A stretch of 64,000 bases of DNA. Origin: Prostheceraeus crozeri. Taxonomy: Eukaryota > Platyhelminthes > Polycladida > Euryleptidae. The stretch is from assembly GCA_907163375.1 (NCBI GenBank), contig CAJQUW010003216.1, positions 1 to 64,000 of the forward strand, written 5' to 3'. This document shows, piece after piece, positions 7,698 through 27,682 of the stretch (position 1 is the stretch's first letter; every line of letters starts with the position of its first letter). The notes below the pieces were generated by a model. That model was not told the DNA's origin. It made no database searches and saw only the letters and a program-made list of their open reading frames with translations. The position numbers were made by a program, and so were the translations under genes.

Positions 7698-8021
7698 ATG
7701 CAGTGGTACTTGATTGTAGCACAACTGGTTTTCGAGCTATGCCTGCTCACTCTCGAAGTATATTCCTTCTGTACATGTGTCTATTATTTAGAAGAGGCTA
7801 GCAAATTCATATCTTCAAAAAGACTTGCTATAGACATCAGTAACGGTGAAACTATGTGTTGTGATGTATGTAAGCGAAAGGATGGAAATGAAAAGCGCAT
7901 CTTCAAGAGATGTAAGCATGCTTTTTGTCAACGCTGTTTCATACGTAATTGCATTCAACTTTGCAAATGTAGCCACTGTGATATTGCTCATTTCGAGTGT
8001 CACTTATGTCGCAATAGTTAG
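7698..8021 (+). CDS. Membrane-anchored RING-finger protein (107 aa)
   Basis: Residues ~3-30 form a hydrophobic segment suited to membrane insertion. Residues ~55-105 hold a RING-like array: CCDVC, then RCKHAFCQRC, then CKCSHC, with a further CHLC near the end. By family knowledge this layout suggests an E3 ubiquitin-ligase type protein acting on host factors, which is inference. The start chosen is ATG 7698, two codons inside the longer open frame. The copy in C is intact, with one residue changed. Confidence 0.55.
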   Translation: MQWYLIVAQLVFELCLLTLEVYSFCTCVYYLEEASKFISSKRLAIDISNGETMCCDVCKRKDGNEKRIFKRCKHAFCQRCFIRNCIQLCKCSHCDIAHFECHLCRNS

Positions 8022-8072
8022 TACCTATGCAAATGTGGTAAAGATAGGTTTTAGCAAAGACTAACACGGAAA

Positions 8073-9772: not shown

Positions 9773-9773
9773 T

Positions 9774-9989
9774 ATGAAGCAGATGTGTTGCTTGCCATGT
9801 AATGAGCCGCCAGAGGTGAATGTCGTTGTCACTTGCACTTGCTGCGCCAGCTCTCACAATGAAACTCCTAAGCAATGTGAACACGATCGCAAAACCGCTA
9901 AAGCTAAATGCTGCAGTTGTTGTAAATGTAGAAAGGCAAGAAAGCAAAAACATGAGAAGGAGGAAAAAGAGTCAGTCGTCATCAACTGA
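9774..9989 (+). CDS. Small cysteine-rich protein (71 aa)
   Basis: The ATG follows the previous stop by one base. The product has cysteine pairs throughout (CCLPC, CTCC, CCSCCKC) and a Lys/Glu-rich tail, so metal binding is likely. The C copy differs at one residue (His to Asp), while the overlapping frame also stays open. The last 38 bases overlap the integrase start. It could be a genuine overlapping gene or a frame kept open by chance; the tight spacing favours a gene. Confidence 0.45.
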   Translation: MKQMCCLPCNEPPEVNVVVTCTCCASSHNETPKQCEHDRKTAKAKCCSCCKCRKARKQKHEKEEKESVVIN

Positions 9990-11040
9990 ACGTTTGAAGT
10001 CAATCTATTATGATGTAAAACATCCGGCAGGATTTGCATCGATCAAGAAATTATCAAAAGCGAGTGGTCTTCCACAATCACAAGTGAAGCGATGGTTAAA
10101 GGGTCAGGCTACCTATACACTCCACAAACAAGCGAAAAAGAAGTACCGCACCCGCCATTATATTGTTCATGACATTGATGAACAGTGGCAAGCAGATTTG
10201 TGTGATGTCGCCTCCATTTCAAAACATAACTCGGGCAATAATTTTATTTTAACCGTCATTGATATTTTCTCGCGTTATGCGTGGGCTCAACCTTTAAAAA
10301 CTAAAGAAGGGAAAGGAGTAGCAAAAGCATTCCAAACAATTTTTCGAGAAGGTCGCATTCCAAAAAGAATTCAGAGTGATCAAGGAAAAGAGTTTGAAAA
10401 TCAGCATGTGAGAAGATTATTTGAGAGGCATGACATTGAGTTGTTTAGTGTAAAGAGTGCTTATAAAGCTGCACTCGTTGAACGTTTTAATCGCACATTA
10501 AAAAATTGCTTGTGGCGACATTTTACTGCCAACTTGACACAAAATTGGACAAAGGTTCTACAAGATACACTCCATGCCTACAATCACTCTATCCATCGTT
10601 CTATTGGATTCAGACCAGTAGATGTAAATGCTGACAATGTAGATAAAGTGCATGAATCATTCGAACGTAAACCCACTCATGTGAAAAGTGATGTGGAAAT
10701 TGGTGATAAAGTTCGTATCTCAAAAGTGAAAAGTGTTTTTGCTAAAGGGTACCTTCCGAATTGGACAGAGGAGGTATTTACAGTATCAAGTATTAATCAA
10801 AAAGACTCTCCCACCACCTACAAGTTGAAAGATTACGATAATGAAGAAATTGAGGGTAGCTTTTACCGCGATGAGATTGAGGTAGTCACTGAAAGTGAAA
10901 CATATTTGGTAGAGAAAATCATTCGATGTAAAAAACGGCAAGGTGAAGAATGGTGTCTTGTTAAATGGACTGGTTATCCTTCAAGTATGAACTCTTGGAT
11001 GCGTCGTGCCGACATCTTTCATCTAAGTGATCGACAGTGA
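9952..11040 (+). CDS. Polinton integrase (retroviral-type, chromodomain)
   Basis: DDE integrase that would join the linear element DNA to host chromosomes. Counting from ATG 9952 (362 aa), a short helix-turn-helix-like region 'GLPQSQVKRWLKG' precedes the rve core with Asp82 ('QADLCDV'), Asp143 ('IQSDQGKEFEN') and Glu177 ('LVERFNRT'), 33 residues apart for the last pair. The C-terminus holds a chromodomain: 'LVEKIIRCKK' through 'CLVKWTGYPSSMNSW'. The frame is open upstream to 9820, but that stretch overlaps the Cys-rich gene and lacks integrase features. Intact in both B and C. Confidence 0.9.
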   Translation: MRRRKKSQSSSTERLKSIYYDVKHPAGFASIKKLSKASGLPQSQVKRWLKGQATYTLHKQAKKKYRTRHYIVHDIDEQWQADLCDVASISKHNSGNNFILTVIDIFSRYAWAQPLKTKEGKGVAKAFQTIFREGRIPKRIQSDQGKEFENQHVRRLFERHDIELFSVKSAYKAALVERFNRTLKNCLWRHFTANLTQNWTKVLQDTLHAYNHSIHRSIGFRPVDVNADNVDKVHESFERKPTHVKSDVEIGDKVRISKVKSVFAKGYLPNWTEEVFTVSSINQKDSPTTYKLKDYDNEEIEGSFYRDEIEVVTESETYLVEKIIRCKKRQGEEWCLVKWTGYPSSMNSWMRRADIFHLSDRQ

Positions 11041-11081
11041 TTCATGCAAAGTTGTAACTAACAATGTTTAGGGTTTGAGCT

Positions 11082-11348
11082 ATGAATCCAACTGCCTCAT
11101 TTTATTCACGACCCTCCTATGTAAGTGGTGGAGGACAAATTTACATCGGCGCTCGCCGCCAACGTGGAGGTAGCATACTTGGTGCACTGAAATCTGTTGT
11201 AGCACCTCTCGTATCCAATGTCGGAAGATCTTTAAAACGAAATGTTTTAAGTAATGCCGTTGGCTTTGCTGGTGATGTTGCTAGTGATCTTTCCAGAGGT
11301 AGAAGTTTTAAGAGCAGTTTGTTGAATCGTGGGAAGGAACGTGGTTGA
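11082..11348 (+). CDS. Core/pVI-like minor structural protein, interrupted by TGA
   Basis: Has a Gly/Arg-rich N-terminus ('GARRQRGGSILGALKS') followed by an amphipathic helix and 'GDVASDLSRGRSFKSS', the usual look of the small core or pVI-like protein of Polintons and adintoviruses. A TGA at 11346-11348 is followed by an open frame to 11537 that continues the protein with a very Arg/Lys-rich tail, as expected for a DNA-packing protein. The same TGA is present in C, so it is an old nonsense mutation, a read-through site or a boundary between two genes. Confidence 0.6.
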   Translation: MNPTASFYSRPSYVSGGGQIYIGARRQRGGSILGALKSVVAPLVSNVGRSLKRNVLSNAVGFAGDVASDLSRGRSFKSSLLNRGKERG

Positions 11349-11537
11349 AAAGCATTGAAGCAGACCTTTGCTGGTGTTACTCAAGGAAAGAAATCGCCTA
11401 AACGAATGAATAAAGGAAGAAGGAAACATCGCGGAGCTGGTAGGATGCGATCTTCAGTCAAAAGGCATTCACGCAAACGTCGCAGAGGCTCTAATCATTC
11501 ATCAGGCGCTAAACGACGACGCTGCTATAACTTCTAA
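11349..11537 (+). CDS. Basic tail of the core protein (downstream of TGA)
   Basis: Same frame as the preceding ORF. It encodes about 60 residues dominated by Arg, Lys, Ser and Gly ('KRHSRKRRRG') and ends 2 bp before the capsid gene. Its coding character suggests it is, or was, the C-terminal half of the core protein. If translated separately it would need a start other than ATG near the stop, or the ATG at 11407. Confidence 0.4.
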   Translation, partial: KALKQTFAGVTQGKKSPKRMNKGRRKHRGAGRMRSSVKRHSRKRRRGSNHSSGAKRRRCYNF

Positions 11538-11539
11538 TC

Positions 11540-12028
11540 ATGGAGTGTAAAACTTCCGGATTTTGTTTGTTTGATCAACAAGCCATACAGACAGATATTC
11601 TTAGTTCAAGTATTGTAGATTATCATCCTCGAACAGCTGAGAATGCTGGCCCCATTGAATTTGTTATTCCTGGTGGTAGTGATGACTACATAGATTTCAG
11701 TTATGCGATGGTTGATTTGAGGTTTAGAATTAAGCAAGCAGATGGAACTGCTATTGAAGATGTGCATAAAGTTGGACTGAACAATTTACCATTGACTACA
11801 TTACTTCGCGATGTTTCTCTAACGATTGGAGAGCAGCAGGTGGAAGGTGGTCAAAGCGATTATCCCTATAAATCATATTTCAATCATGTATCACAGTTTC
11901 ATCCAGCAGCACAAAAAAGTCATATGGAAGCCATGGGATGGTACAGAGATGAAGCAGGAAAATTTGATGTTGAAACAAACAGTGGCTTTGTAAAGCGATC
12001 TGCTATGATTAAAGATAGTAAAGTATGA
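11540..12028 (+). pseudogene. Major capsid protein, N-terminal part (split by LINE)
   Basis: First 161 codons of the hexon-like major capsid protein whose intact copy is 46726-48003 in C. The LINE insertion after TATG 12024-12027 creates a TGA at 12026-12028. The rest of the gene resumes at 16805-17598. The protein is the double-jelly-roll type of Polintons (F54H12.2-like proteins of animal genomes), for example 'GPIEFVIPGGSDDYIDFS' near residue 36. Confidence 0.85.
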
Positions 12029-13305
12029 AGAAAACTAAATCGTCAAAGTCGTCTCCTGTCAGTAGGCCTAAGAACAGTGGTATCACCAGTGTAGGATCCT
12101 CCAACAGTAGGTCGTCTGTCACGCACCAGAATTCGTCACAGTTTTCGAAGACCAACCAAGTTTCAAAAGACCCTAAAGCTCCCCAAATGAAGAGTTGCTG
12201 GTGCAAACAACCATCCAGCAAGTCTGAAATTGAATGTTCAAGTTGTAGAGATTGGATTCATTACTCTTGCCTAGGACTTTCCATTCAGGATTTATCGTCA
12301 GTCATTAACGATGATCCTGGTCTCTATCTCTGTAAAACCTGTGTGAGTCAACCCACTGAAAACTTGAAACAAATAAAGACAGATCTTCAAGCTGCACACT
12401 CATTTGCAGCTATATTTTGCTTCGACCAGAACGTTTATGATATCTTGAATGATGCATTATTTGTCAATGGTTCTTGTAGTTTATTGTCTTCTTCGTCTCG
12501 CTCACAGTTGGTCAATTCTGACGCTAATGTGCAAACCGGAGCTTCATATCCGGAACATGAGGCTCTCGAGAAATCACTCTCCATTCTACGCGAATCGATA
12601 GATGCCTTATCGAAGAAGATCAACGAATCTCTCCCGGCACGCCTCGCTGAACTAGAAAATAAAATAGAATTTCTAGCCACCTCCCTGCATTCCTCAGGGT
12701 CTTCTAGAGATGAACGGTCATTTGCTGGTGTTGTGAAGTCCCCACTATCTTCTCATCAGTTGTATCCCTTTCCTCAGATGCCCCAGAGTGCCTCACGTGA
12801 ATCGAGTGCAACCTATTCCGAAGCAACTAGCTCAGGCGTTGTTATACCTAATGAGCTTATTTTGTCAAACTTCCCGGAAAAGGAAGATTTGTCACTGAGC
12901 ATTGCTGAACTTATGAATTGTTTTAGGGACAACGGACTATTTTGCCCTGGTCCTTTTGATGTTGTTCGGTTAGGTAGGTTAAAGAACTCGACTACCGGTC
13001 CAAGAATCGTAAAGCTCATATTTCACACAACATTCGATGCTAAGTCGTTCAAGGCAGGGTTTTCTCGTATTAGCTCCTCTCATAAACTCTTCTCGGACAC
13101 GAAGTTGAGGTACAGTTTGTCTGCGCAAGGCCGAGCTTTGAAAAAACGATGCTTTGAGCTGAATTCTCCCCACTCCTCAGTTTCCTCTGATATGCGCAGT
13201 GAAAGCTATAGCCTTCGTGAATCGGGTACTATTTGGCGCTTTATTAAACTAGATAATGGGAGCTGGAAGAGAGACATGCATTGGTCAGATGCTCCAAAAA
13301 ACTGA
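12025..13305 (+). CDS. LINE ORF1 protein with PHD finger (426 aa)
   Basis: Residues ~55-110 form a PHD-type zinc finger (CWCKQ, then 'CSSCRDWIHYSC', then 'LCKTC'), as seen in ORF1 of CR1/L2-clade elements. A coiled-coil region (~180-225) and an RRM-like nucleic-acid-binding domain (~275-420) follow. The ATG lies in the target-site duplication, so this copy uses a start codon donated by the capsid gene; the native N-terminus may be longer. Its 3' end overlaps ORF2 by 25 bases. Confidence 0.75.
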   Translation: MKKTKSSKSSPVSRPKNSGITSVGSSNSRSSVTHQNSSQFSKTNQVSKDPKAPQMKSCWCKQPSSKSEIECSSCRDWIHYSCLGLSIQDLSSVINDDPGLYLCKTCVSQPTENLKQIKTDLQAAHSFAAIFCFDQNVYDILNDALFVNGSCSLLSSSSRSQLVNSDANVQTGASYPEHEALEKSLSILRESIDALSKKINESLPARLAELENKIEFLATSLHSSGSSRDERSFAGVVKSPLSSHQLYPFPQMPQSASRESSATYSEATSSGVVIPNELILSNFPEKEDLSLSIAELMNCFRDNGLFCPGPFDVVRLGRLKNSTTGPRIVKLIFHTTFDAKSFKAGFSRISSSHKLFSDTKLRYSLSAQGRALKKRCFELNSPHSSVSSDMRSESYSLRESGTIWRFIKLDNGSWKRDMHWSDAPKN

Positions 13306-16300
13306 AACCTGATAACTTTGTTCATACCAGCAACTCTCAAAACATTGCTCCTACAGTAAGCCAAAGCAGTTCTGCTTGTAACTCTGTTATAAAGTGTGTC
13401 ATGAATAACGCGAGATCATTAAAAAACAAATTGATTAATCTTTGGCAACTACTTTCATCCTGCGTCTACGATGTTCTCGTTTTTACGGAGACATGGTTAT
13501 CACCAAATATTTCAGATAGTCTTCTTACCAGTGCAACACCCTACAAAGTAGTGCGTTGTGATCGTTCTGATGGTTACGGTGGGGTTGCAATTTTTGCGCG
13601 AGACTCCTTTTCTCTGAATTGTCGAACCTCTCAATCAACTACCTGCTTGAATTTTCTATGTCTCGACATTGATTTACCCAAGGGAACATCTTATAGATTT
13701 ATCTCATTGTATCTTCCTCCCCCTGTCTCCTCAGACACTGCCAATTCCTTAATTGATCTACTAGATCTGTGGATTAATCCAAACAAACCTACATTCTTAT
13801 GTGGAGATCTAAACCTACCACATATAGATTGGTCCATTCCCATAAACCGAGGTGATGCTGCTCATGAGACGTTCTTAAACGGTATTTCCCAGAATAATCT
13901 TACACAACTGGTTGAAACTCCAACTCGAGGAAACGCCATCCTAGATCTCGTGCTCACAAATTGTCCAAATGTTGTCTCTAAAATCATTGTTTCCCCTTCC
14001 TTTCACTCTTCTTGCGATCACTTGTCTGTTGAATTCTCTATCCTGTTACCGAGCACTCTTAGTCCTCCGAAATCCACTCGTCGTTTTTACGACTACAATA
14101 AGGCAGACTTCAATGGCATGTCCACGTACCTTAGCAGCATTAACTGGTCACCTATCATGAATGGTTCTGTAGATGTTGAAACTGCGTGGGATTTCTTTAT
14201 TTTGACTATACATAGCTGTATTGCACAATATGTCCCTGTAATTACCGAAAAAAAGTATCGCTCAAGAGCTCCGAAAATTCTACGAAAACTCCTTGCTAAG
14301 AAGAAGAAATATTATAAGAAAAATTCCGCAAAATATAAAGAAGTTGCACAAGAATATGATCACGCAGTAGAACAAATAGCGATGTTTAGAGAGGAGAAGC
14401 TAACTCAGAGTGGAGATATTCGTAAATTTTACGCCTATGCTAAGCGCCGAACGAAAAGTAGTCGCGCAATTCCACCCATCTGCAATGAAAATGACAGCAT
14501 GATTTTTGACACCCTCGATAAAGCAAACTTATTAAATGCTTACTTTGCATCCGTTTTCACATCAGACGATGGTGCCTTACCTCCCTTCCCTAAACGAGTG
14601 AATCCTGGAATATCTCTGGATTTCATTCATTTTAATCCGGAAATTGTTGAAAGAGCTCTAGAACGGTTGCCGCCTAAATTATCACAAACTCCTGATGATA
14701 TCCCTCTACTTATTCTTCGACGTCTTGCTAGTACTCTCGCATTCCCATTAAGTTGCATTTTTGATCTATCCATGTCAACCGGCAAATTACCATCTACTTG
14801 GAAAAAAGCTCTAGTCTGTCCAGTCTTTAAGAACAAAGGATCCTCCTCTTCCCCCAATAGCTATCGCCCGATCTCACTTACCTCTGGCTGTTGTAAGGTC
14901 ATGGAAAGGGTAATTTCTGATGAAATATATTCCTATACAATGAGCCATAAGCTTTTATCCATGGAACAGCACGGCTTCCTTCCCCGACGTTCAACAGTTA
15001 CACACATGCTCAGTTCGATATTCGAAATGTGTTCTGCATTAAGTCTCCATAATCGCTTCGATTGCGTGTACATTGATTTCTCTAAGGGCTTCGACACAGT
15101 ATCAATACCTAAGCTTCTCCATAAACTCTCAAGCTATGGTTTCAATGGTCAATTGCTCCAATGGATTAATAATTATCTATGTAATCGAACTCAGAAAGTC
15201 ATAATCAACACCATCACTTCGGACGCGGTAGCTGTTACAAGTGGCGTACCCCAAGGCTCTGTTCTTGGACCTGTATTGTTCCTTCTTTATGTCAATGACG
15301 TGTTTGACTGCCTTGTTGGATCGACTTCAGCCCGCCTTTATGCTGATGACTTGAAATTTATGTCAACCAGAAGTTATAACTCCTCTTCACAAGTATCTTC
15401 AGACCTAAAACATACTCTTCTCAAATTTGATAATTGGTGTAAAACGTGGCAACTGAAGATTTCTATGCAAAAAAGCTTGCTGTTTACTGCAGGAGATCGA
15501 TATGCTCCTTCCGTCAACTATCATCTCGACAGCGTATCCCTGAAAAATTCAGTCACTGTGAAAGACGTGGGCTTTTTAATCTCATCAGATCTCAGATCTA
15601 GTGATCACTGTGCGCGCATCAGCTCAATCGCATATGCCAGAGCATACTGTATCCTAAAATCTTTCGTTTGCCACAACTCTCGTATCTTAATGAAAGCCTT
15701 TGTTGTCTTTGTTCGCCCTCTCTTGGAATATGGAAGTGTAATCTTTTCACCGTACCTCAAACGCGACATTTTTCGTATTGAGCGTGTTCAGAGATTCTTC
15801 ACCCGCATCGTCTGTAAACGCTCTGGTATCAAGTATGACAGCTACTCTCACAGATTACAATTGTTAAGATTAAAATCTCTAGAATATAGGCGCATTTTGT
15901 TGGACTTGTACTTCTTGTATAAACTGTACTACAATCATTTCGACTTGTCGCTCAACTCTTTCTTTACCACCTACCTTTCTTCTCAAATTACTCGAGGTCA
16001 ATCACGTAACAGCTGTCAGATTGTGCCAGTCTTTAAAGTTAATTCGAACTATCTCAGTGGATTGTTTTTCTTTCGCGTCATCAAAATATGGAATTCATTA
16101 AACGATTCAATAGTAAAAGCTCCAACCTTCATGATGTTCAAGAACAGACTCAAATCAATTGATCTAAGTGAATTTTGCTCATACTGTGACTGCTAACATG
16201 TGATTTCGTATAAAATTATTTGACAAGTGCTTTTTATACCTGATGGTAAATTTTATTTAGATACATTCCTACATTCCATATTGAAGATGATTCTCATCAT

Positions 16301-16804
16301 AATGAAGATCAAGAATAGTCTCAATCTCATTGATCCGAGTGAATTTGTATATATTGTGACCATGATCATTAAAGTGTAAATTTTGTATAGATGATTTTGT
16401 TGCATTCATTCTTGTATTAGATTTAAGCATTTACGTTCTTTTGCTCCATTGTGAGGACTCCCATTCAATGAACTCTTATCATGTCGTGATCATCACTCTT
16501 CAAATTTGTAAATATAGGCCCTATAGATCTCACGTATTTTGTATATGGTATATGATGTACAGTGTATATCATGATGACTCTGAAAATTTGTGAATATGTA
16601 GGTCTCATATAATTTGTTTATGATGTGCATGTACATCATGATCACTTGGTGTATTTGTAAATATATATCTCATGTATTTTTTATTGATGCTAAACTTTGC
16701 GTATGCATATGTAACACGTTATCAACGCTTGCTTGTAAGTGCCCTCGCGGCCATCGCTTTGCGTTTTCTGTATATTTCAGAATAAACATTTATGACTTAT
16801 GACT
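12028..16804 (+). mobile_element. CR1/L2-like non-LTR retrotransposon in the capsid gene
   Basis: Two intact overlapping ORFs (PHD-type ORF1 and endonuclease-RT ORF2), a 3' UTR with imperfect ~85-bp internal repeats (at about 16506, 16589 and 16655) and a heptameric tail (TTATGAC)2-TTATG. Comparison with the uninterrupted capsid gene in C places the insertion between GTATG and TCAGC, with a probable 4-bp duplication TATG (12024-12027 and 16805-16808). No 5' UTR is present, so the copy is 5'-truncated at or near ORF1. Confidence 0.85.
13281..16196 (+). CDS. LINE ORF2: endonuclease and reverse transcriptase (971 aa)
   Basis: Intact. The N-terminal apurinic-like endonuclease shows 'NARSLKNKL', 'FTETWL', 'CGDLNLPHIDW' and 'SCDHLSVEF'. 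The reverse transcriptase shows 'SYRPISLTSG', 'DFSKGFDTVS', 'GVPQGSVLGPVLF' and the catalytic 'YADD'. A C-terminal region ends with 'FFFRVIKIWNSL', common in CR1-like elements. It should nick the target and copy its RNA at the break. The long open frames imply a recent insertion. Confidence 0.9.
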   Translation: MVRCSKKLKPDNFVHTSNSQNIAPTVSQSSSACNSVIKCVMNNARSLKNKLINLWQLLSSCVYDVLVFTETWLSPNISDSLLTSATPYKVVRCDRSDGYGGVAIFARDSFSLNCRTSQSTTCLNFLCLDIDLPKGTSYRFISLYLPPPVSSDTANSLIDLLDLWINPNKPTFLCGDLNLPHIDWSIPINRGDAAHETFLNGISQNNLTQLVETPTRGNAILDLVLTNCPNVVSKIIVSPSFHSSCDHLSVEFSILLPSTLSPPKSTRRFYDYNKADFNGMSTYLSSINWSPIMNGSVDVETAWDFFILTIHSCIAQYVPVITEKKYRSRAPKILRKLLAKKKKYYKKNSAKYKEVAQEYDHAVEQIAMFREEKLTQSGDIRKFYAYAKRRTKSSRAIPPICNENDSMIFDTLDKANLLNAYFASVFTSDDGALPPFPKRVNPGISLDFIHFNPEIVERALERLPPKLSQTPDDIPLLILRRLASTLAFPLSCIFDLSMSTGKLPSTWKKALVCPVFKNKGSSSSPNSYRPISLTSGCCKVMERVISDEIYSYTMSHKLLSMEQHGFLPRRSTVTHMLSSIFEMCSALSLHNRFDCVYIDFSKGFDTVSIPKLLHKLSSYGFNGQLLQWINNYLCNRTQKVIINTITSDAVAVTSGVPQGSVLGPVLFLLYVNDVFDCLVGSTSARLYADDLKFMSTRSYNSSSQVSSDLKHTLLKFDNWCKTWQLKISMQKSLLFTAGDRYAPSVNYHLDSVSLKNSVTVKDVGFLISSDLRSSDHCARISSIAYARAYCILKSFVCHNSRILMKAFVVFVRPLLEYGSVIFSPYLKRDIFRIERVQRFFTRIVCKRSGIKYDSYSHRLQLLRLKSLEYRRILLDLYFLYKLYYNHFDLSLNSFFTTYLSSQITRGQSRNSCQIVPVFKVNSNYLSGLFFFRVIKIWNSLNDSIVKAPTFMMFKNRLKSIDLSEFCSYCDC

Positions 16805-17598
16805 TATGTCAGCTATATGGTCCGCTGAATTTAGACTTCTTTAGACAGTCAAAGGTTTTACTCTGTAATACCAGCATGCGACTCAAGCTGACATTGAATA
16901 AGCCTGAATTTGCACTGAATGCATTTGGTAAAGTTGACAATTTTAGAATTCATGTGGAAGATATTGCACTTTACATTCGTCGAGTAGTACCGAATCCAAG
17001 TGTCATTAGAGGACATGCTGAAGGTCTTAACCGCAAAAATGCCATTTACCCCGTTCAGCATACAAAGCTTCTCACCTTTACAATTCCGAAAGATCAAAAG
17101 AGTTTCATGAAAGATGGCCTCTTTCCATCGGAAGCACCGAAGCTCCTCATGGTGGCAATGGTTGAAAATGATGCATTTAATGGTAATATAAAGAAGAATC
17201 CTTTCAATTTTAAACACAATCAGTTAAGTGAAATTGCTTTACGTGTAAATGGTGTGAGTCATCCTGGTCCACCCTACAAATCAGATTTTGCTGCGGATCA
17301 ATTTATGCGCAGTTATGTTGATTTTATGGATGTCTTTGGCTTTTACAATACGGATGACACCAACGGACTTACTATGAAAGAGTTTAAGAGTGGATATACT
17401 ATTTATGCATTTGATTTGACTGCTGACAGCGATATTAGTGCACCTTATCGTCAAGCGAACGTGCCTCATAATATTCGTTTGGATTTGACGTTCAAAAGAA
17501 CACTATCTGAGACGATCAATGTATTAATTTATGCAGTCTTCGATTCAAATATTGAAATTACAAAGTATCGTGACGTGATTCTTCAGTATAATCGTTAA
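16805..17598 (+). pseudogene. Major capsid protein, C-terminal part
   Basis: Continues the capsid reading frame from 'CQLYGPLNLDFF' to 'YRDVILQYNR', matching residues ~162-425 of the copy in C with a handful of substitutions. The stop overlaps the protease start (TAATG, 17596-17600). Apart from the LINE insertion this capsid gene would be intact. Confidence 0.85.
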
Positions 17599-18059
17599 TG
17601 AGTTGGTTGACTGCTGACGATATTAAGACTAAAGTGCAGCGTAATGCAGACGAAGCGACGTTGAAAGCTTTCGATAATGTCTATTCACTCGATACCTTAC
17701 CACCTGCAGTAAATCACTATCCCATCTTTATTGTGCTAAACACTCATTCGCAGAATTTAGGCGGTGAGCATTGGAAAGCGATCTTTATTGGAGAAGACCG
17801 ACGTGGTGAACTATTTGACTCTCTTGCTCAACCTCCAAATATACCAACACAGCAGTGGTTGAGAAAACATACGCGTCAATATCAGCGAAATAAACGCATA
17901 CTACAACATCCACTTTCATCAACGTGTGGTGCTTTTGTACTGTACTTCATCTTAAAACGTTTACATGTATCTCGATCTGTATCTGTTATTCAAAACTTTT
18001 CATGTAATCCATCCTCTAATGAAAAAATGATTTGTAAGTTCTATCATGATTTGAAATAA
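17598..18059 (+). CDS. Adenain-like cysteine protease (153 aa), intact in B
   Basis: Capsid-maturation protease of the adenovirus C5/Ulp1 fold, as in all canonical Polintons. Catalytic residues are visible in the expected order: His58 in 'GGEHWKAIF', Asp74 in 'ELFDS', a Gln near 103 and Cys110 in 'SSTCGAFVLYF'. It starts with a 1-nt overlap (TAATG) with the capsid stop, so the two are coupled. In C a 149-bp deletion has removed the His and Asp part. Confidence 0.85.
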   Translation: MSWLTADDIKTKVQRNADEATLKAFDNVYSLDTLPPAVNHYPIFIVLNTHSQNLGGEHWKAIFIGEDRRGELFDSLAQPPNIPTQQWLRKHTRQYQRNKRILQHPLSSTCGAFVLYFILKRLHVSRSVSVIQNFSCNPSSNEKMICKFYHDLK

Positions 18060-18090
18060 AAACATCATGTTGAAAAAATTGTTTTTTATT
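18055..18090. terminator. Back-to-back poly(A) signals between convergent genes
   Basis: AATAAA at 18055-18060 overlaps the protease stop, and AATAAA on the minus strand (18085-18090) overlaps the end of the TBP-like gene. Rightward and leftward transcripts therefore end within about 40 bp of each other. Confidence 0.5.
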
Positions 18091-18631
18091 TTACAATCCG
18101 CTGGGTACGCACATACTCGATGAGATAGTCTAGGATCACATTTGCTTGTACATGAAATTTTAGTCCAGTAATGATCACTTTACTATTATGAAAGATTGCC
18201 ACATGCACAGGTAACCAACAACTAATGAGAGCTGCAGGAAAAAGTTCGGGTTCATAACACAAATTGTAACTGCTGGTACGAATCTTCAAAAATGATACAC
18301 TTTCACTCAATTGAGTAGAGATCACCATATTGTCCACAGTCAGATTCGACATCACACACCTCTCCCTCTTCCATATCCGACGTAGTAGTCTCTGTAACTC
18401 TAAGCGCATTGACTGCGCCGATGAATGAGAAAGGGCGCCGAGAATCTGTGCAGTTCCATTTGGGAAGAGTTGAAGATTCCGTGAATTGTTCATCTTCACC
18501 ATTAACATTTGAGGTCGGCAAGGGTAATACTTGCTGTTTGGAAGGTGTTGGTGTAATGTTGCGAGATCGATTTTGGTGTAGAGTCTGAAGCGACGGAGAA
18601 TGTTGACGATGGTGTAGCGATGGCGCTTCAT
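18086..18631 (-). CDS. TATA-binding-protein-like protein (181 aa)
   Basis: From ATG 18631 the product is 181 residues, the size of a bare TBP saddle, with two internal repeats. Repeat 1 runs from 'VNILRRFRLYTKIDL' through 'LQLFPNGTAQILGA'. Repeat 2 contains 'YEPELFPAALIS' and 'VAIFHNSKVIITGL' followed by a helix. These match the TBP pattern of D-L-x-x-I, then Y-x-P-x-x-F-P-A, then A-x-I-F-x-x-(G/S)-K-x-x-x-T-G, in the right order and spacing. By family knowledge it should bind promoter DNA and recruit transcription factors; use at the TATA boxes of this element is inference. The 5' 329 bases overlap the PC4-like gene in another frame. Intact in C. Confidence 0.7.
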   Translation of the reverse strand: MKRHRYTIVNILRRFRLYTKIDLATLHQHLPNSKYYPCRPQMLMVKMNNSRNLQLFPNGTAQILGALSHSSAQSMRLELQRLLRRIWKRERCVMSNLTVDNMVISTQLSESVSFLKIRTSSYNLCYEPELFPAALISCWLPVHVAIFHNSKVIITGLKFHVQANVILDYLIEYVRTQRIVK

Positions 18632-18953
18632 AATGAAGAAATGAGTAAATTGAGCGATGTACCTTCCTTTTATACTTTTCCCAACTACCTTGATGAAATG
18701 TGAAGTTAGTATGGAGTTGGGAATGATAGAGTTGAATTCGCCGTTTGTTGACGCGCAACCAGATGCGATTTCCAATACGTGAATGTCTTTTCATATAGAA
18801 GTATTTCAAATCCTTCATGATATGATGTAGAGACTGAAAATGACGATAAGATAAAGCAAACTCTCTTCTCACATTTCCAGTTGAATCTTTGAAATAGACG
18901 TTTCGATCATGATCCGTTTCAATACGTTGTAGAGAATCTAATTTCCAACTCAT
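18303..18953 (-). CDS. PC4-like protein with low-complexity tail (216 aa)
   Basis: Starts at ATG 18953. Residues 1-110 show two similar strand-strand-helix units: 'RNVYFKDS...REFALS' with helix 'YRHFQSLHHIMKDL', and 'RIWLRV...RRIQLYHS' with helix 'SWEKYKRKVHRSIYSF'. The pattern is reminiscent of the PC4/p15 single-strand-DNA-binding coactivator fold; this is a pattern-based guess. Residues 111-216 are Ser/Thr/Pro-rich, end acidic and overlap the TBP-like ORF. Both frames stay open in C. It is paralogous to the next gene upstream. Confidence 0.45.
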   Translation of the reverse strand: MSWKLDSLQRIETDHDRNVYFKDSTGNVRREFALSYRHFQSLHHIMKDLKYFYMKRHSRIGNRIWLRVNKRRIQLYHSQLHTNFTFHQGSWEKYKRKVHRSIYSFLHYEAPSLHHRQHSPSLQTLHQNRSRNITPTPSKQQVLPLPTSNVNGEDEQFTESSTLPKWNCTDSRRPFSFIGAVNALRVTETTTSDMEEGEVCDVESDCGQYGDLYSIE

Positions 18954-18975
18954 GGTGCGTGGTAGTCATGTCTGA

Positions 18976-19332
18976 TTAAGATTTGCATAGTAGGGCGATG
19001 AACTCACGACGAATAAATGTCATGATGGAGCGATGTATGTATCTTCTATACTTCTCCCAATTGTATTTGCGAAATGAGAAACAGTTTGCGGAATGAGAAT
19101 GGCAGATTTGAATTTCATTGTTGCGACGTTGAAGCCAAACTTGATCACCCAAGGAGATGAATTTTAATGTTTCAAAATATTCCAAGTCCCTCATGATATC
19201 ATTGAGGTTGACACATTGTCGCCATGTTAATGTAATACCTCTTGATGTATGACCATGAGAATTTTTGAAATGTACGTTTCCATCACGATCAACTCTGATA
19301 TATTGTAGAGAGTCCAAAATCTAAGTCTTCAT
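18976..19332 (-). pseudogene. PC4-like paralogue, nonsense codon in B
   Basis: Counterpart of the 118-residue protein at 45141-45497 in C. In B the fourth codon, Trp in C, is TAG (19321-19323), so only a non-ATG restart would give product. The body has the same two units as its neighbour: 'GNVHFKNS...GITLT' plus helix, and 'QVWLQRRNNEIQICHS' plus 'NWEKYRRYIHRSIM'. Its ATG lies only 35 bp from the oppositely directed start of the penton-like gene. Confidence 0.5.
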
Positions 19333-19367
19333 GATGTTATGCAAAGTCGCAGATCAGCAATATAAAA

Positions 19368-20148
19368 ATGTCGTTTTATCATATTTTGCTTAGCAATGCG
19401 GCCGCAAATAGATTTGCTAGTAATCGCACTCTTTTCTACTCCCATTGATCATACACAACAGCTAAATGGAAATTGGGAAGTGGGTGTCACTCAACTTGTT
19501 CATAGCAACTGTGTCTATACTTTTGATCATGAGGTGATCACTATTAATATGAGACGTACAGCTGCTTACCAATGTGAAAAGGGCTGCCGAGTGTACATTC
19601 CACAGTGGCCAAAGAAAGATCTCTTATCATGTAAAAAGTATATATATGATTTCCTGAATAAAGCGTGTAAACATATTGTCCAATTTACTCCGCACAATGA
19701 TGATCATAATTATGTACATCATGTAGTTGAGAAAGATTAGATTGTTGGTTTAAGTCCAAGTTTAAGAAATGATTCAGGTTACCTCGCTAGCGCCTTAACA
19801 AGCTATGATAATTATAACGTTAATTACCACCCAAGTGGTCATAAACAGTTAATATATCGAGAGGAAGCTTATTATGTAGATCTTATTCCAAGAAATGAGA
19901 AGACGTTGGTGAAGAAGATTGTGATTAAGCCAAGAAAGACAAACATGACTCCTGAAACATTATTGAAGAAATTTAATTATCTTCTTCGAGTTGATGGCAA
20001 ACAAGTGGCACCATTGACTTATATCAAATCATCTAATCATATTGCAATAAGTAAATTAAATGATGATGATCTAGTATTAGTTTGTTCAAAAGATTTTCAT
20101 AAAGATGCTGTGACAAGTATCACACTCCATTTCCGAATGAAGAGTTAA
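19368..20148 (+). pseudogene. Penton/fibre-like structural protein 1, degraded
   Basis: Counterpart of the 1.4 kb gene at 43707-45105 in C. The N-terminus 'MSFYHILLSNAAANRF' with a downstream 'LNGNWEVGVTQL' motif is recurrent in Polinton structural proteins, probably pentons or fibres. B has a 5-bp deletion near 19427, a TAG at 19738-19740 also present in C, and an internal deletion of roughly 0.6-0.8 kb after 'SKDFH' (about 20100). Confidence 0.6.
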
Positions 20149-20187
20149 TGCAAACGTATGCTAATATATTTTTCCAATGTGAATAAT

Positions 20188-21632
20188 ATGGAAAGTGAAA
20201 ATAAGGACTCGTTTCTAGTCTACTTACCCAGTAATGCTTCTATGAATAAATTTCCCAAAAATAAACCATCAGACTATCGAGTAGAATTAAATCGTGCACT
20301 ACATTTAGAAGGTGAATTGGAGGTTGGCGTTTCTAGTATTTGCTATGATAGCAATATTCAGAATGTGAATGATTTGGAAGAAATGATATTGACTCCTCGC
20401 ACCCATGATGGAATAACGATGAATAATGCATTCCAGTTCCCATACAATTTAACGTCAGATGGAAAGTGGAACTATGAATGGATTCAGATAAAATCAGATT
20501 ATTATGGTCCATTTGGGAATGAGAAAATTATTAAGGCATTCAATAGTGGTAATACTTCCATCATGAAGAATAAGGATCAGAAAGCTTATGAGTTTACTAT
20601 CTATCATTGGAGTGGGAGACAGTTCCTTCACTACATCTAACATCAATTGCTACTGCAAATGTTAAAAAGTTTTATTCAAATCGAATCAACAAATTTCTAT
20701 ATAAATTTAAAATATTTGATGAAGATGTTGTAGAATGTGAAGAACGCATCATTTTGAAAAAGCGTGGTGTTCAACCTTTATCACTTATTGAGTTAGTAAA
20801 ACGATGGAATGAGACTGTGGGTAAGAAGTATGGAGAGAAAATTATGGCGGACAAAAATAAGTTGGTTATTCAGAAATATAATGACAAACTTACAGTTTAT
20901 TTCTCTCCAACCTTGCGTCATTTTGTAAGACATTATACACCTATTATTGGAAGCGGTGTGGTGTATGCTTCTCATGAATATCACACTAAAGCTGATTCAG
21001 TTAATGATGAATGGTGGGTGGACATCTATGGTGATCGCATCAAGAAAATTTACCAGTCTTATCAAGAATCTAAAGTTGCTATCAATATAATGCCGCGTCT
21101 ATATCATACAGTTGAAAGCTTCATTCATGTAGTAAATCCTTATATACAACAGAAGTTGAAGCATGTGATGAAAAGTAAATATGATGTAAAGACACACCAC
21201 ATTTCGTTTTCAATTGAAAATCAACGCGTTGTTCTGAAACTGGGTGATGACATTCAATGTCAATTGAGTAAAAATTTGAAAAAACTCTTTGGTTTTTCAA
21301 TGCTACAAACTGTGTTTACTGCTGCGCATACGATTGGTATAGAAACACCAATGACACTTGATAAACATGAACAGCACCTTTACATTCAAAGTGATTTGAT
21401 TCTACCTATTTCTGTTGGTGAGAAAAAAGAATACATTTTACGTGATTTCATTCATGATAAAGACGCTTCATATGGAATAGTCGAGAAGATGTTTGAATCT
21501 ATTTTCTATCATCCCGTCATCAAACAAACTATACCCTCTATTGCTATCAAAATTACCAATGGTTTACAAGAGTGCATCCATGTGAAAGATACTAAATCCC
21601 TCGTAACTTTAGTGTTTCGGAAAACAAAGTGA
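20188..21632 (+). pseudogene. Penton/fibre-like structural protein 2, frameshifted
   Basis: Starts at ATG 20188 with 'FLVYLPSNASMNKFPKNK' and 'LHLEGELEVGVSSICY', the same N-terminal signature as protein 1, so the two are paralogues. The remaining ~400 residues have alternating strands and no named domain. Against C, B lacks about 75 bases near 20634, which shifts the frame; the frame reopens to 21632 and ends 'LVTLVFRKTK'. AATAAA follows at 21656. Confidence 0.65.
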
Positions 21633-21810
21633 AGTCATTGTGATATGTTTATTGAAATAAAAATATGTGTATGAAAAAGTCTTTTCACAGATATAGGGGA
21701 ATGGGCTGACTGTAGGCATATATTCACAAGGAAGAAACGATCTCATGCGATACATAAAACAACCATGTATATCTACAAAAAGCAACATCAAAATACTGAG
21801 TTAAAGTTGA

Positions 21811-24800
21811 TTATGTCAATACATCTCCTGAATGTGGTAGCGTTAGTTTTATTCTTTTGGGTGGAGGTATGTTTGTGTCAGGATGTCCATGTGGAAGAGA
21901 TGTGTTATGTCTTATCCAACACCTCTTATCCTCCCATGCTGAAAGTGCCCGTTTCCTAAAAGTATGAGTTTTGATCTCATGCGACTTAGATTTTAAGATT
22001 GTCATATTGACAAACGTTATATTTTTATTTCTATAGGCTTTCCTGAAATTTTTATGTTTCATGTTAGAGACCAATGATCTTGATATGCCTTTAGCACGCT
22101 TAATACTATCGTCGCTATCCTTTAATTTCACACTGTACATTTTTGGGTGGAGGAGAATCATTTCATCTATTTCCTTCCCTGCTGTCTCATCCTTAAAGCA
22201 GCCAAGTTTTGCCTTATTTTTGATGGAGTAGAGTGGGTGATCAGTAGGATAATTTGATGCATCAAAATATCTTTCTAAAGATTTTCCTACTTCATTGAAA
22301 TTTAAATCTTTTTGAGTGGTAATACCTAAGAAGAAACTATCTGTATCACCACCCAACAAACGAACCTCTTTTACGAGAGGACATGGTTTTAGTATTTTAT
22401 GAAAGAGTTGGTACATTTCAAGCTTAGAGTAATCTAGTACAGCTTGGCCAATATAGATGGGCTTGCACAACTGAACTTCAGATTTTATCATTTTAACACC
22501 TACAAGGTCCCCATCGATAATGTCTCTATCGATGAATAGAGGTCATGAGACCAATTTCTTAAATTTTTTACATCATTGACTAGTTTATAGTTTACACGTT
22601 TTCTAACATCCTCCATCGTCTTACCAAATAGACTATTATTCTTATACTTATAAAAATCTTTTTCAAAATTACTTTGGGCTAGTGCACGTTTCTGGCTGTT
22701 GCTATCAATATATGGTTTGAGGAAGGCTTTCTGTCTAAATTTAATAATGCGGTGAACTCTTTTTAAAATCATACCCATTTTTAAATAAAATTTTAAGATG
22801 GAAAAGTGGACTAGATAGTTTTGCTTATCATATTGGGTGAGTAAAAGTTTGCGGCAAGGCTTATAGTCGGGTTGACCGCATGATTCTAAATCTTTATGAA
22901 ATTGTTTCATAAAGTCGGAAAACATATCTTTGGTCACTTCACCTGATTCGGGTGCGAGTGGAAAATCTACGGTTTTATGTTTAATATTATTTGGATAGAT
23001 TAGATCTATCTCAAAATAATATCCCCAATCACCTTCATCTGGAATTGCTAGTATGTTAGAAGGGTTGGAGAGATGCTGAATTTCACTATCATCTAACCAG
23101 CTAAACTCAGAGTGAGGGAGTGGTTTGGATAGTGAACTACCATATAAATTATTTTGGTCATAATACTTAAGATGAGTCTGATCATCGCCTACTAATTTTG
23201 ATTTTAACCTATGTTTATTTACAAATGTGAGACCACCGCGAATTCCTCGCTCAAATAGATTATACATCTCTGGATCTTGTAAGAGATGAATGGTCTCACC
23301 AGTCATTTTAAAAGCAGACTTAAATGACATGGCTGGCAGACTGACAAAGTGGACGGGATCTAACTTATCTTCTTCTAATGCCACTCGTCGAAACTCCTGA
23401 AATACATCAGCCAGCAAAAATACATCTAACTTAAGATAGGCAATCATATATTCGCCAAATGTATGGCAGTCAAATTTTATCCATGCATCTTGTGCATGAT
23501 CATAATCTTCGGTCTTACATTCTGCTCCGGTCAAATCATTTTTAAATTTATCTATGGGCGGAAGAGAAGTCTCGCCGAGTTTACTAATCGCATCAAAATA
23601 TGCATATGGAAAGACTCCTTTCCGTGTGATGACTTCATCGGTTAGATTTGGATATTGTTTCTTAAGATTTTGTGTTAGTGGAAGAGACTTTAGATTTTGC
23701 ACGAGAGAGGCCAGTGATGCAGCCATAAATTGGTAGGAATCTAAAAATTTTATATTAAAATAGACCGTCTTATTTTCTTTAGTTTTATCGACAGGCACTT
23801 TTGCTGTCATGGCCATAAACTTCTCTCTCGTTTGTGCTATTACATCAAGCTTCCACTCTTTCATTTGACCTAAAGTTCCTTTTATTATCATATGGCTGTC
23901 GTAGCCCTTGAAATTATGGAAAATGACGGGTAATGTACGCCGTTTCATCCTAAGTGAAAAATTGCATTTTGAACATAGTGCGTTTCTAAATTTACCAGTG
24001 ATGTGGTCATGGTCGCGCACTTTCTTAATCTTATCATCATCAAATGTTTTCCTACATTTGAGGCAAACGTTGCAACTATCAAATTTTGCTTGATCATCTG
24101 CTGTCATATGCAATGATCTGCGATAGAGTTCACCATCATACTTTTGTTGAAATTTTACAGCCTGTTCGAGGAATTGTAGGAATTGGTAAATACAATCCTC
24201 ACCTTGCCAGACGTGCATTTTATTTTTTCTATTTTGGAAATGGTCATGCCATACTTCATAGCAGGAAATGGCTGCTGCTCGATGGGTGTTATCATCGATA
24301 TAGCATTCGATGTCAGCATAGATGACACGAAGAGGACTTAGTTCATCGCCATTCTCTCTATATGAAAACTCCTTATCTTTGGGCATGCGCTCCATTTGTA
24401 GTTTACCTCGCTTACACCATTCGTAATGAGTTTCAAATTTGTTTTTACTCCTAAAGTTCCGAATGCATCTGTCACAGTAATAAATCTCTGATGAGGTAGA
24501 ATTTCTTAAGTGGTGGTATAAGCGAGAAATTTTGGGAATACCGCAGTAGTGCCATTCCTCACTATCATCCTGTCTTACTAATAAAAGGTTGACAACGTGC
24601 TCATAACAACTCGAACGCGAGTTGTAGCGGACACCCTTCAATCCCTTTTCCCAAACATGGAGAACTATTTTGATGTTGTTCAATTTTTCAAATTTTTCTA
24701 TATCTTTAATTTTCATATCTTCACTATTGCAGTCATCAAACCTTAATTCATTCTCCCACTGTAGATACTTACTCTTACGGTATCGGCTATTCCGTACATC

Positions 24801-25800
24801 ATTATAGAGGAGAATGGAGAGGACGGCATACTTAAAACAGTGCGATTCGCAATTTACAGAAATGACTGCTGTTTTATTTTTTAAATTTTTCGGAAGTTTA
24901 AAGGAGCCTCTTCCAGAGTAGTTTTCTAATAAAGTGATTTTAATCATGGCGGTCTCAATACCATCAAAAACGAGTCCACTATCATGCTCGTTAAATTTAT
25001 CTATGTTTAATTTTAACCATTGGATATGAAAATTTATCGAAGACTCGCAGTCTACAACTTCGGTTGCAGGAGAGGAGGGTATGTGAAACTCCAACCTCTC
25101 TACTATTTGACCAGTATGGTGGTCGATTTTTACATATTTTATTTTGAGATAGATGAGCGCCTTCATTCTAAAATTGACTAAATTGTTGAAGAGCGCACCA
25201 ATCAAAGATGAATTTTGATGAAACCATTCTTCAAAGTCAGTAATGGTTTCTGAGGATTCCATCTGGTAGTTCCTCAATAAATTATTTATCGACACTTCAG
25301 AGAGTCGGATAGAGGAGGTGCTGTTAGTATAACTATCGTCACTGTGTGTATGTCGAAGTCTATGTGAAGATAGTTCAAAATGTGACTCAAAAGACTGAAT
25401 GCATAAATCGCAAGAAAAGGAGACATCGTTAACAGAATCATCCCCACCTTCGGAGACTGATGCTGACTTAGGTCTACAAACACCTCGCTTGATGTGTCGG
25501 ACGAGATCACGCTTCCTCGTGAAGATGCGCCCACAGTCAGCACATTCCCGATCGTCGCATTCTCGCGACAATGTTGATATGGACTCGCTCGAGATGGGAC
25601 TGGTATCACCTGAAAGAGAAATCATTCTATCATCTCTGTTCAAGTCTCAGTGTATTGTTACAACCTACCTTGACTCAACAACTCTAAACTTTCCTCGAGA
25701 AGGGAGGGCGTTGGTGATGAAGTTGATGCCTGAAAATTGAGGAAGATGCTATTAGCCACACGTTTGAGGGAGATGAGTGAAGAAATTTTCAACTTACCAT
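21811..25800 (-). pseudogene. polB: Protein-primed DNA polymerase B with N-terminal zinc fingers (1-nt frameshift)
   Basis: Replicative polymerase of the element, about 1290 residues. The start is split: ATG at 25798-25800, intron 25730-25797, exon 2 25669-25729, intron 25610-25668, exon 3 from 25609. Visible parts: two C2H2 fingers (~44-66 and ~88-111), the N-terminal domain shared with the 7285 gene, ExoI 'YADIEC' (~455), a Cys-rich DHDH insert (~555-580), ExoII 'FHNFKGYDSH' (~587), ExoIII 'YLKLDVF' (~748), PolA 'DQNNLYG' (~842), PolB 'NNSLFGKTMEDV' (~1015) and catalytic 'GGDTDSF' (~1108). One base is missing near 22567, and the frame resumes at 22491. That is the only lesion, so an assembly error is possible. 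Confidence 0.85.
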
Positions 25801-25977
25801 TTCAACGAAATCAAGTTTCAGGTTGATACTTCAACAAGATAGAGACTTCACTCAAATTTGGAATTCACGAGAGAGCAGTTCACTTGTACGCCTCAAATAT
25901 AGAATTCGCCAGAGAACACTTCACTTATATGTCACAAAGACAGAGTGAAATGACACGAATGTCACTTTACATACATA

Positions 25978-26016
25978 CTTTTATATTCATCATCCATTGG
26001 CTGTTCATTCTGATTG
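25978..26016 (-). promoter_or_regulatory. PolB promoter (TATA and two CCAAT boxes)
   Basis: On the minus strand TATAAAAG lies at 25978-25985, with CCAAT (reading ATTGG on the plus strand) at 25996-26000 and 26012-26016. The divergent gene at 26075 starts 59 bp beyond, so the two genes probably share this control region. Confidence 0.5.
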
Positions 26017-26074
26017 GTCGCTTGTTGATACTTAAGAATTAGAAAACATTTCAAAGTTATTATTCACAGTCAAC

Positions 26075-26524
26075 ATGACAAGCCCTCCGACAACACCAAA
26101 CACAAAATTCTCTTATCCATGCTCAACACCAAAGGCGCTCGTTGCACCAAACGCTCCAACGAAGGGGAAGGTAGAGAAGGTGTACCGACTGGACAATATC
26201 AGAAAGTTGTCATTACCAGCGGATGAGGAAGAGGAGAGTGTATGTGAGAAGGAGTGTCCCGACTTAACAGGCGTGAGGTGGAAGTATCTCCAGTACGATA
26301 CTGACAATGTGATGGAGATCACCAGCACGAAATTCCTCCACCAATTATGGGAGTGGTACACCCCTAACTCCCAGCCACGAACTATGGCGGAGTGGGAGTA
26401 CATCGACAAAGTGAGGCTCGCAGTGGAAGAACGATTGAAGCAAGTGAACTGTTTTTGTGATCTATGTGAAGCCAGACTCTGGGACGATATTGACGATGAA
26501 TACCTTTTGAAATACATGCCATAA
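26075..26524 (+). CDS. Unknown acidic protein, divergent from PolB (149 aa)
   Basis: Not recognised. The N-terminus is Pro/Thr-rich ('TSPPTTPNTKF'), the middle has an acidic run, and the C-terminal half (residues 75-149) looks folded, with 'FLHQLWEWYTPNSQPR' and a Cys pair 'CFCDLC' followed by an acidic helix. It is intact in C with small indels in the acidic run, which is what one expects of a translated gene. It shares its upstream region with PolB, suggesting early expression. AATAAA follows the stop. Confidence 0.6.
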   Translation: MTSPPTTPNTKFSYPCSTPKALVAPNAPTKGKVEKVYRLDNIRKLSLPADEEEESVCEKECPDLTGVRWKYLQYDTDNVMEITSTKFLHQLWEWYTPNSQPRTMAEWEYIDKVRLAVEERLKQVNCFCDLCEARLWDDIDDEYLLKYMP

Positions 26525-27490
26525 TAAATTTTTATTTCGTATTATCTTTGCTTTCATACTGACTTACTTGAACGGGGCTTCAGTGGATGATTTAACCATG
26601 TATACATTTTCATTTGGAAATAGTAGCACGCTTAGTTTAACTTGCAAATCTTATAACATTTCATATGGGTGGTAATGGTAAATGAAATAGTGTTAAATAA
26701 AATTAAGATAGCTTACACTTCTGATACAGGGATAGCAATCGACTGCAATCCATGTGTAAAGAGCTTGTTAGACTCGCGGTAGAAGAACGATTGAAGCAAG
26801 TGAACTGTTTTTGTGATCTATGTGAAGCCAGACTCTGGGACAATATTGATGATGAAGACCTTTTGAAATACATGCCATAATAAATGTTTATTTCGTATTA
26901 TCTTTGCTTGCTTTCATACTGACTTACTTGAATGGGGCTTCATTGGATGATTTAATCATGTATACTTTTTCATTTGGAAATAGTAGCACGCTTAGTTTAA
27001 CTTGCAAATCTTATAACATTTCATATGGGTGATAATGGTAAATGAAATAGTGTTAAATAAAATTAAGATAGCTTACACTTCTGATACAGGGATAGCAATC
27101 GACTGCAATCCATGTGTAAAGAGCTTGTTAGACTCGCGGTAGAAGAACGATTGAAGCAAGTGAACTGTTTTTGTGATCTATGTGAAGCCAGACTCTGGGA
27201 CAATATTGATGATGAAGACCTTTTGAAATACATGCCATAATAAATGTTTATTTCGTATTATCTTTGCTTGCTTTCATACTGACTTACTTGAATGGGGCTT
27301 CATTGGATGATTTAATCATGTATACTTTTTCATTTGGAAATAGTAGCACGCTTAGTTTAACTTGCAAATCTTATAACATTTCATATGGGTGATAATGGTA
27401 AATGAAATAGTGTTAAATAAAATTAAGATAGCTTACACTTCTGATACAGGGATAGCAATCGACAGCAATCCATGTGTAAAGAGCTTGTTA
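26417..27490 (+). repeat. Three tandem ~360-bp copies of the 3' end of the 149-aa gene
   Basis: The segment starting 'ctcgcagtggaagaacgattg' at 26417 recurs at about 26774 and 27134 ('ctcgcggtagaagaacgattg'). Each copy carries the last ~35 codons of the gene, its AATAAA and the flank ending 'gagcttgttagact'. Copies two and three are almost identical to each other. C has a single copy, so the expansion is specific to B. Confidence 0.8.
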
Positions 27491-27682
27491 GACTACGGAA
27501 GAGAGAAGTGTGTTATGTTGCGTGTGGCGCGTGAGTGTCCTCCCATTTCATTCCATTCATCATTTTTCTTCCCCTCTGCATTCCATATCCGAGGATATGT
27601 GGCGGGCTTGGGACCGCTTTAGCTGCATTAGAAGGTTGGCCCTTAAAAGAGCCCATGGGTCGTTCTCCGTCCACCGACACTA

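Follow-up and report, generated by a model that had tools for sequence, protein, structure and literature searches.

The window analysed here, 64,000 nucleotides of a contig from the polyclad flatworm Prostheceraeus crozeri (GenBank CAJQUW010003216.1), holds two copies of a Polinton whose features are collected in Table 1. The terminal inverted repeats (TIRs) of both copies start AGTAGTAAG, with AGT ends in both, and the flanks of copy 2 resemble a 6-bp target duplication, none being evident at copy 1. The family B DNA polymerase (PolB) and RVE integrase that together mark a Polinton/Maverick are both present, PolB being recognized by Pfam in copy 2; the long frame of copy 1 is called PolB because its stretch is 99% identical to copy 2, which does match. 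An adenain-like protease is indicated by a profile (A6) that matches the S273R protease of ASFV in the PDB (1.6e-6), and its residues H58, D74, Q103 and C110, which we take to be catalytic, are invariant across five aligned rows. The candidate capsid gene is broken by the LINE in copy 1, where one piece matches the Pfam DJR-like family below the cut-off (E 0.041), while the whole protein gave no meaningful match, PDB included; the candidate packaging ATPase likewise had no PDB match.

Table 1. Features of the two Polinton copies, in positions of the window.
Feature	Position	Strand	Remarks
Polinton copy 1	4568..31028		26,461 bp including a LINE at about 12028-16804; TIRs; termini AGTAGTAAG...CTTACTACT
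Candidate packaging ATPase	8073..9086	+	AAA_14 0.013, Pox_A32 0.036, best row Adeno_PX 0.0054; all under cut-off
Integrase, retroviral-type with chromodomain, copy 1	9820..11040	+	Pfam rve 5.3e-11, Chromo 6.6e-7
Cysteine protease, adenovirus/ASFV-type	17598..18059	+	Tail-to-tail with TBP; Pfam C48 E 0.0011, just under cut-off
Polinton TBP gene, copy 1	18086..18631	-	181 aa, two TBP repeats
Small gene upstream of TBP	18303..18953	-	216 aa ORF: domain of about 105 aa plus tail
TATA motif TATAAAAG	18667..18674	-	43 nt upstream of TBP start codon; in most copies of families i-iii
Paralogue upstream of small gene	18976..19320	-	114 aa open frame
PolB gene, copy 1 ORF	22500..25643	-	1047 aa; Endonuclease_7 2.1e-6; no PolB row
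Polinton copy 2	33810..55666		21,857 bp, inverted relative to copy 1; TIRs; flanks TTTATG / TTCATG (5/6)
PolB, copy 2	38141..40888	+	Frame broken by a stop; DNA_pol_B_2 2.7e-11 on 39968-40888
Polinton TBP gene, copy 2	45842..46408	+	188 aa as read; Pfam TBP 3.9e-17
Candidate major capsid protein, copy 2	46726..48003	-	425 aa; called from position and conservation
Integrase with chromodomain, copy 2	48503..49723	-	Pfam rve 5.5e-11, Chromo 6.5e-7

Several further features were seen in passing. The LINE, which is absent from copy 2, encodes an endonuclease and a reverse transcriptase (RVT_1 7.8e-30), and its upstream ORF has a PHD-finger match below the cut-off. Within the copy 1 PolB frame lie an Endonuclease VII-like segment above the cut-off (residues 525-563) and a C2H2 finger below it (residues 33-53); a further PolB fragment at the right edge of the window (60550-63094, plus strand; DNA_pol_B_2 8e-14) has an Endonuclease VII-like segment just under the cut-off. 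Tandem repeats occur near the element ends, at 29675-30594, 53961-55228 and 26548-27567, with spacings of 484-620 and 360 bp. A short first exon ending ATG/GTAAGT, with an intron end TTTTCAG/GCATC, appears to lie upstream of 5840 (plus strand) and of 25643 (minus strand), that is, at the first left gene and at PolB, which suggests that the element may rely on host splicing and nuclear transcription by RNA polymerase II.

The product of 18086-18631 belongs to the family of the TATA-binding protein (TBP), the factor that marks the sites at which cells begin to read their genes, and it is encoded by the Polinton. A preliminary description made from the DNA alone had proposed a TBP-like gene of 181 codons in both copies, and the gene lies exactly there on the minus strand of copy 1; in copy 2 the frame has 188 codons, extending a few codons beyond the position of the copy 1 stop. 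The profile search and structure prediction it called for bear out the identification: both proteins match Pfam TBP (PF00352, cut-off 22.9 bits) in two stretches each, copy 1 with E 3.4e-18 and 65.7 bits and copy 2 with 62.3 bits, and the predicted fold is the TBP saddle, with structural matches in BFVD. A phmmer search of the PDB returned 35 distinct sequences (E up to 1, best 3.5e-11), and in 34 of these the name is TBP or TFIID (a fusion in four cases); the remaining one carries only the name ECU04_1440 protein and is presumably the TBP of E. cuniculi. The order of motifs quoted in the description holds for the second repeat (YEPELFPA, then IFHNSKVIITG), the first repeat showing a degenerate form of it (YYPCRPQM, LFPNGTAQILG), and identity to cellular TBP in structural alignments is 19-25%.

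Upstream of the TBP gene lie two paralogous small domains (18976-19320 and 18624-18953, both on the minus strand), for which a bbba-bbba arrangement is predicted with low confidence. The tail of the nearer ORF overlaps the first 108 TBP codons in another frame; such a run-on over the first 101-112 TBP codons occurs in the window and in L020, L022, L025 and L028, and is interrupted in L002 and L026. Across families i-iii (defined below) the tail has a similar PFSF...A...L stretch and an acidic end, ...SIE in most, and TBP synonymous divergence within the overlap is only slightly lower. It is possible that the small gene and TBP are conserved overlapping genes. A search with the small-gene protein found two relatives, and no PDB fold matched at E 0.001 or better; one of the two small genes had a Nudix match at 0.015, under the cut-off. 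A by-eye resemblance to PC4 was rejected, with no PC4 Pfam row at E up to 10 and a poor AF2 model (pLDDT 55).

The gene is not peculiar to this locus. The genome behind the window comprises 2.05 Gb in 14,165 contigs, and a 36-base tag from the TBP gene, allowing up to 3 mismatches, matched it 5,936 times (3,046 + 2,890; reversed control 0), which points to a very large expansion of Polintons; if all were full length, 5,936 copies of about 22 kb would account, by this tag count, for roughly 6% of the assembly. Among 11,785 candidate protein matches, 149 of the best 150 scored, a sample biased to the best, have no internal stop. At least four kinds of Polinton-type TBP exist in the genome, which we group into families i-iv by our own assignment. 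Twenty loci of 9.9 kb each, all picked for a TBP match, were fetched, and every one also matched proteins of the window Polinton by tblastn, so that the homologues that the preliminary description suggested seeking in other Polintons do exist, within this TBP-chosen set. In families i/i' (L028, L032 and the window), iii (L024-L026) and iv (L027) the TBP gene adjoins the protease, in 6/6 fetched loci; in family ii (14 loci) PolB matches lie within the fetched pieces and no protease match does.

Divergence between the families is considerable: the window TBP is 39-55% identical to those of families ii-iv over the matched stretches, and other Polinton proteins have diverged too (in L025, capsid 55% and integrase 62%), so that the TBP gene looks like an old resident of the element. 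Between four copies of the window family and L028 (sub-families i and i') dS is about 0.37-0.41 and dN 0.10, a ratio of 0.26-0.28. Comparisons between families, where computable, give a dN/dS of about 0.15-0.6 while dS approaches saturation; those within families give 0.15-0.69, from a handful of changes, as expected for partly decaying copies. These substitution patterns indicate that the Polinton TBP is under purifying selection.

Relatives beyond this genome are numerous. A single-sequence search found 33 and a profile search 290 at E 1e-10 or better, the best 120 of which all carry PF00352, as do 34/34 members of the set labelled A1. Their sources are public assemblies and metagenomes, with contigs of up to 24.5 kb, the Polinton setting being seen in the loci of the flatworm's own genome; two scans of IMG/VR yielded no relative of the Polinton TBP, and IMG/VR held no relative of the window PolB. 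The family of Polinton TBPs is real, widespread and under selection.

For the tree we used 131 rows: 119 for database sequences and the window, 6 copies from the same genome, 4 cellular TBPs and 2 viral TBPs from IMG/VR (L039, L040). The Polinton-type TBPs do not group with cellular TBP, being set apart from the cellular and IMG/VR viral sequences by a branch with 100/100 support whose two parts, on either side of the midpoint root, measure 2.44 and 1.21; given the long-branch warning issued by the program, this should be interpreted with caution. The host TBP, found by a Pfam search of the genome on contig C9306 (exons), falls with the other cellular and IMG/VR viral TBPs, and a TBP paralogue on C3829 resembles TLF in our reading. 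Families i/i' form one clade and families ii-iv another, and both include database relatives.

An alignment of 122 sequences, the window's own and 121 relatives from the single-sequence and profile searches, allowed the functional surfaces to be compared. Residue numbers are those of the 339-aa human TBP, mapped through the host TBP, and the intercalating and other DNA-contact positions, as well as the TFIIA positions 184, 189, 191 and 205, are those that we take to hold in the human protein. The C-lobe contacts with DNA are almost invariant (N257, V259 and F305 in 122/122; F288 and T313 in 121/122), and in the N-lobe F214 is kept in 122/122 and N167 in all 106 sequences having a letter there. 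The full set of four intercalating phenylalanines of canonical cellular TBP is not present: three are kept in 121-122 of 122, and F197 is replaced by P in 118/122 (2 gaps, 1 L, 1 Q), a replacement that might make TATA binding weaker. Other N-lobe changes are also consistent, position 222 being hydrophobic in 122/122 (T to L) and V169 surviving in 6/122 (V to M/H). At the TFIIA position 191, E has become K/R in 101/122.

In cellular TBP two C-lobe glutamates are tied to TFIIB, and a basic cluster of the N-lobe to TFIIA, TAF1, Mot1 and Brf, according to the available text of Ravarani et al. (2020; PMC7221094). The glutamates are retained in the Polinton family, E286 in 122/122 and E284 in 118/122 with D in the other four. 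The basic cluster for TFIIA, TAF1 and Mot1 is not, K/R remaining at position 231 in 4/122, 235 in 28/122, 239 in 16/122 and 243 in 38/122, in a mapping onto the published positions that is partly our own. Judged by its residues, the Polinton TBP is thus a non-standard TBP, with one intercalating phenylalanine and most of the N-lobe regulator surface gone.

The evidence from promoters is more equivocal. TATAAAA lies 43-47 nt upstream of the TBP start in 21 of the 24 distinct copies with the start placed, in a survey covering 26 of 30 loci (the start is unplaced in L019, L029, L031 and L034, and six loci are repeats of the same copy); it is missing from L007, L021 and L027, the one family iv copy in the survey. 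In families i and iii, by our own count, the motif is followed at about 32 nt from its first T by an initiator-like CTCAT. Because these TATAAAA bases double as codons for YK(R) within a WxxYKR that is conserved in the small ORF upstream, the conservation of the motif is ambiguous. The preliminary description had further spoken of TATA promoters in the same element, and as a general statement this finds no support: TATAWAR occurs 4, 11, 8 and 8 times in four pieces of the two copies, at the level of shuffled sequence (means 4.9, 11.7, 9.2 and 7.0). A coupling of TATA with an initiator was likewise rejected, with 2 observed against a shuffled mean of 1.3 and 119/300 shuffles as high. Inspected by eye, the tightly packed structural genes have neither a TATA nor any convincing common late-promoter motif upstream. 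In one family ii copy (L041), too few to count, TATAAAAG stands with an initiator-like sequence and a splice donor upstream of PolB.

We suggest, as the reading that we consider on balance probable, that this is a Polinton-specific TBP which would bind TATA-like boxes in the element's own promoters, bend them, and recruit host TFIIB and RNA polymerase II. With its altered N-lobe it would evade host regulators, being blind or less sensitive to TFIIA, TAF1, Mot1/BTAF1 and NC2, and one half of the box may be read with a different preference. In favour of this reading count, among other things, the wide conservation and purifying selection, the many tag matches and the TATAAAA upstream of the gene's own start. 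The main mechanistic argument is that the TFIIB glutamates are kept and that no TFIIB ORF was found, set against the situation in viral TBPs: a TFIIB-like gene in the same genome, as in an orthogonal viral TBP-TFIIB system, and indeed any TFIIB family match, was absent from Pfam scans covering 49 of the 50 window ORFs of at least 120 aa (all except 45520-46170, the two TBP-holding ORFs being represented by their TBP part). The self-supplied initiation factor of the preliminary description agrees, as an interpretation, with the conservation of the residues that contact DNA and TFIIB, but it has to do without element-wide TATA promoters. Against the proposal stand the lack of TATA enrichment, the structural genes without a TATA by eye, the coding role of the TATA upstream of TBP and its absence from the family iv copy, the change of F197 to P, and an N-lobe that is still partly basic in some members, at positions 243 and 235 above all.

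A bolder form of this proposal is possible, and we hold it only tentatively: an ancient TBP lineage belonging to Polintons and their relatives, in which the C-lobe still docks on host TFIIB while the rebuilt N-lobe, free of host control, reads a different half-site, so that one factor of 181 residues would be enough to capture the host's RNA polymerase II, with the neighbouring small gene perhaps as its partner. Less likely again is a late-gene initiation factor of non-TATA specificity resembling the herpesvirus vTBPs, the N-lobe reading another half-site at the structural genes while early genes use host TBP. The consistent changes among the N-lobe DNA contacts (F197, T222, V169) and the structural genes without a visible TATA would suit it, as would the presence among the BFVD matches of U58 of Elephant endotheliotropic herpesvirus 4, at only E 1.0e-3; but those genes share no motif by eye, and the Polinton TBP keeps its TFIIB contacts whereas herpesvirus vTBPs work within a viral complex.

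Two further roles seem to us improbable. As a modulator of host transcription, the protein would occupy host TFIIB or TATA boxes and dampen or redirect host genes instead of serving the element's promoters, which the (near-)invariant TFIIB contacts, the largely lost N-lobe surface and the absence of an element-wide TATA signal would allow; yet a small element would presumably gain most from its own transcription. A DNA-bending protein for replication, integration or packaging, to which we give equally little weight, could account for TBP lying next to the protease and the candidate capsid gene in 6/6 loci of families i, iii and iv, and bacterial proteins without a role in transcription do contain TBP lobes (PMC7221094, in the text available). 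It would leave the near-invariant TFIIB glutamates without an explanation, and the family ii gene lies near PolB instead, with no protease match in the pieces fetched. A recent capture of host TBP or a decaying passenger is very improbable: the host does possess a TBP gene and a paralogue, and some Polinton copies are interrupted (e.g., L028, L018/L027), but the gene is a single open frame under purifying selection, and host capture is disfavoured by the tree, in which host TBP lies across the 100/100 branch (subject to the long-branch warning), and by the divergence (25% identity to host TBP).

The TBPs known so far from viruses belong to large DNA viruses, and almost every one of these has a TFIIB gene of its own (PMC7221094, in the text available). 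Here virus-like transposons of about 22 kb have a large and conserved family of TBPs that keep the TFIIB contacts, with no TFIIB found among the ORFs scanned, which suggests a leaner logic, in which the element would supply only promoter recognition and borrow the rest, bringing with it a part of its own gene-switching machinery. The family also offers a natural experiment on which surfaces of TBP are essential (DNA, TFIIB) and which serve host regulation, and its gene can serve as a marker of a Polinton lineage with thousands of tag matches in one animal genome.

With the Polintons/Mavericks and adintoviruses the element shares an integrase with chromodomain, PolB, a protease and TIRs with AGT ends. 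The preliminary description knew of no established report of a Polinton TBP, and we found none in literature searched for Polinton, Maverick or adintovirus together with TATA-binding: in the accessible text of papers on Polintons, Mavericks and PLVs the term is absent (PMC11071308, PMC10120064, PMC8097293, PMC4642659) or confined to the references (PMC12220804), and PMC7786948, as far as its text is available, mentions host TBP only. Viral TBPs are otherwise described, in the available portions of the respective papers, from mirusviruses (PMC10132985), mirus-like elements of an alga (PMC10675990), a phycodnavirus together with TFIIB (PMC4602308) and a giant virus (PMC11464507).

Compared with cellular TBP of archaea and eukaryotes and with animal TLF/TRF2, the Polinton protein has three of the four intercalating phenylalanines and has mostly lost the N-lobe regulator surface; the TBP and TLF-like genes of the host are separate from it. 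The herpesvirus vTBPs (the UL87/BcRF1/ORF24 family), which recognize TATT boxes, likewise represent a virus-encoded TBP-like fold, but they are much longer proteins and form part of a viral pre-initiation complex. The TBP-like proteins of Nucleocytoviricota and Mirusviricota have the same two-lobe fold and mostly keep the DNA-contact phenylalanines (PMC7221094, PMC10132985, from the text available), although in our tree the Polinton TBP stands apart from the two IMG/VR viral TBPs, with the long-branch warning noted above. Redirection of the host polymerase by an element's own TBP would not be wholly without precedent, as the authors describing the algal giant virus CpV-BQ1 propose that its viral TBP and TFIIBs do so (PMC12085832, in the text available). 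Loss of the N-lobe surface is common to the Polinton TBP and the viral TBPs of PMC7221094; according to the accessible text of that study, the latter usually lose the TFIIB glutamate (about 40% keep it) and nearly always come with a TFIIB of their own, whereas the Polinton, at about 22 kb and with no TFIIB among the ORFs scanned, has kept the glutamates.
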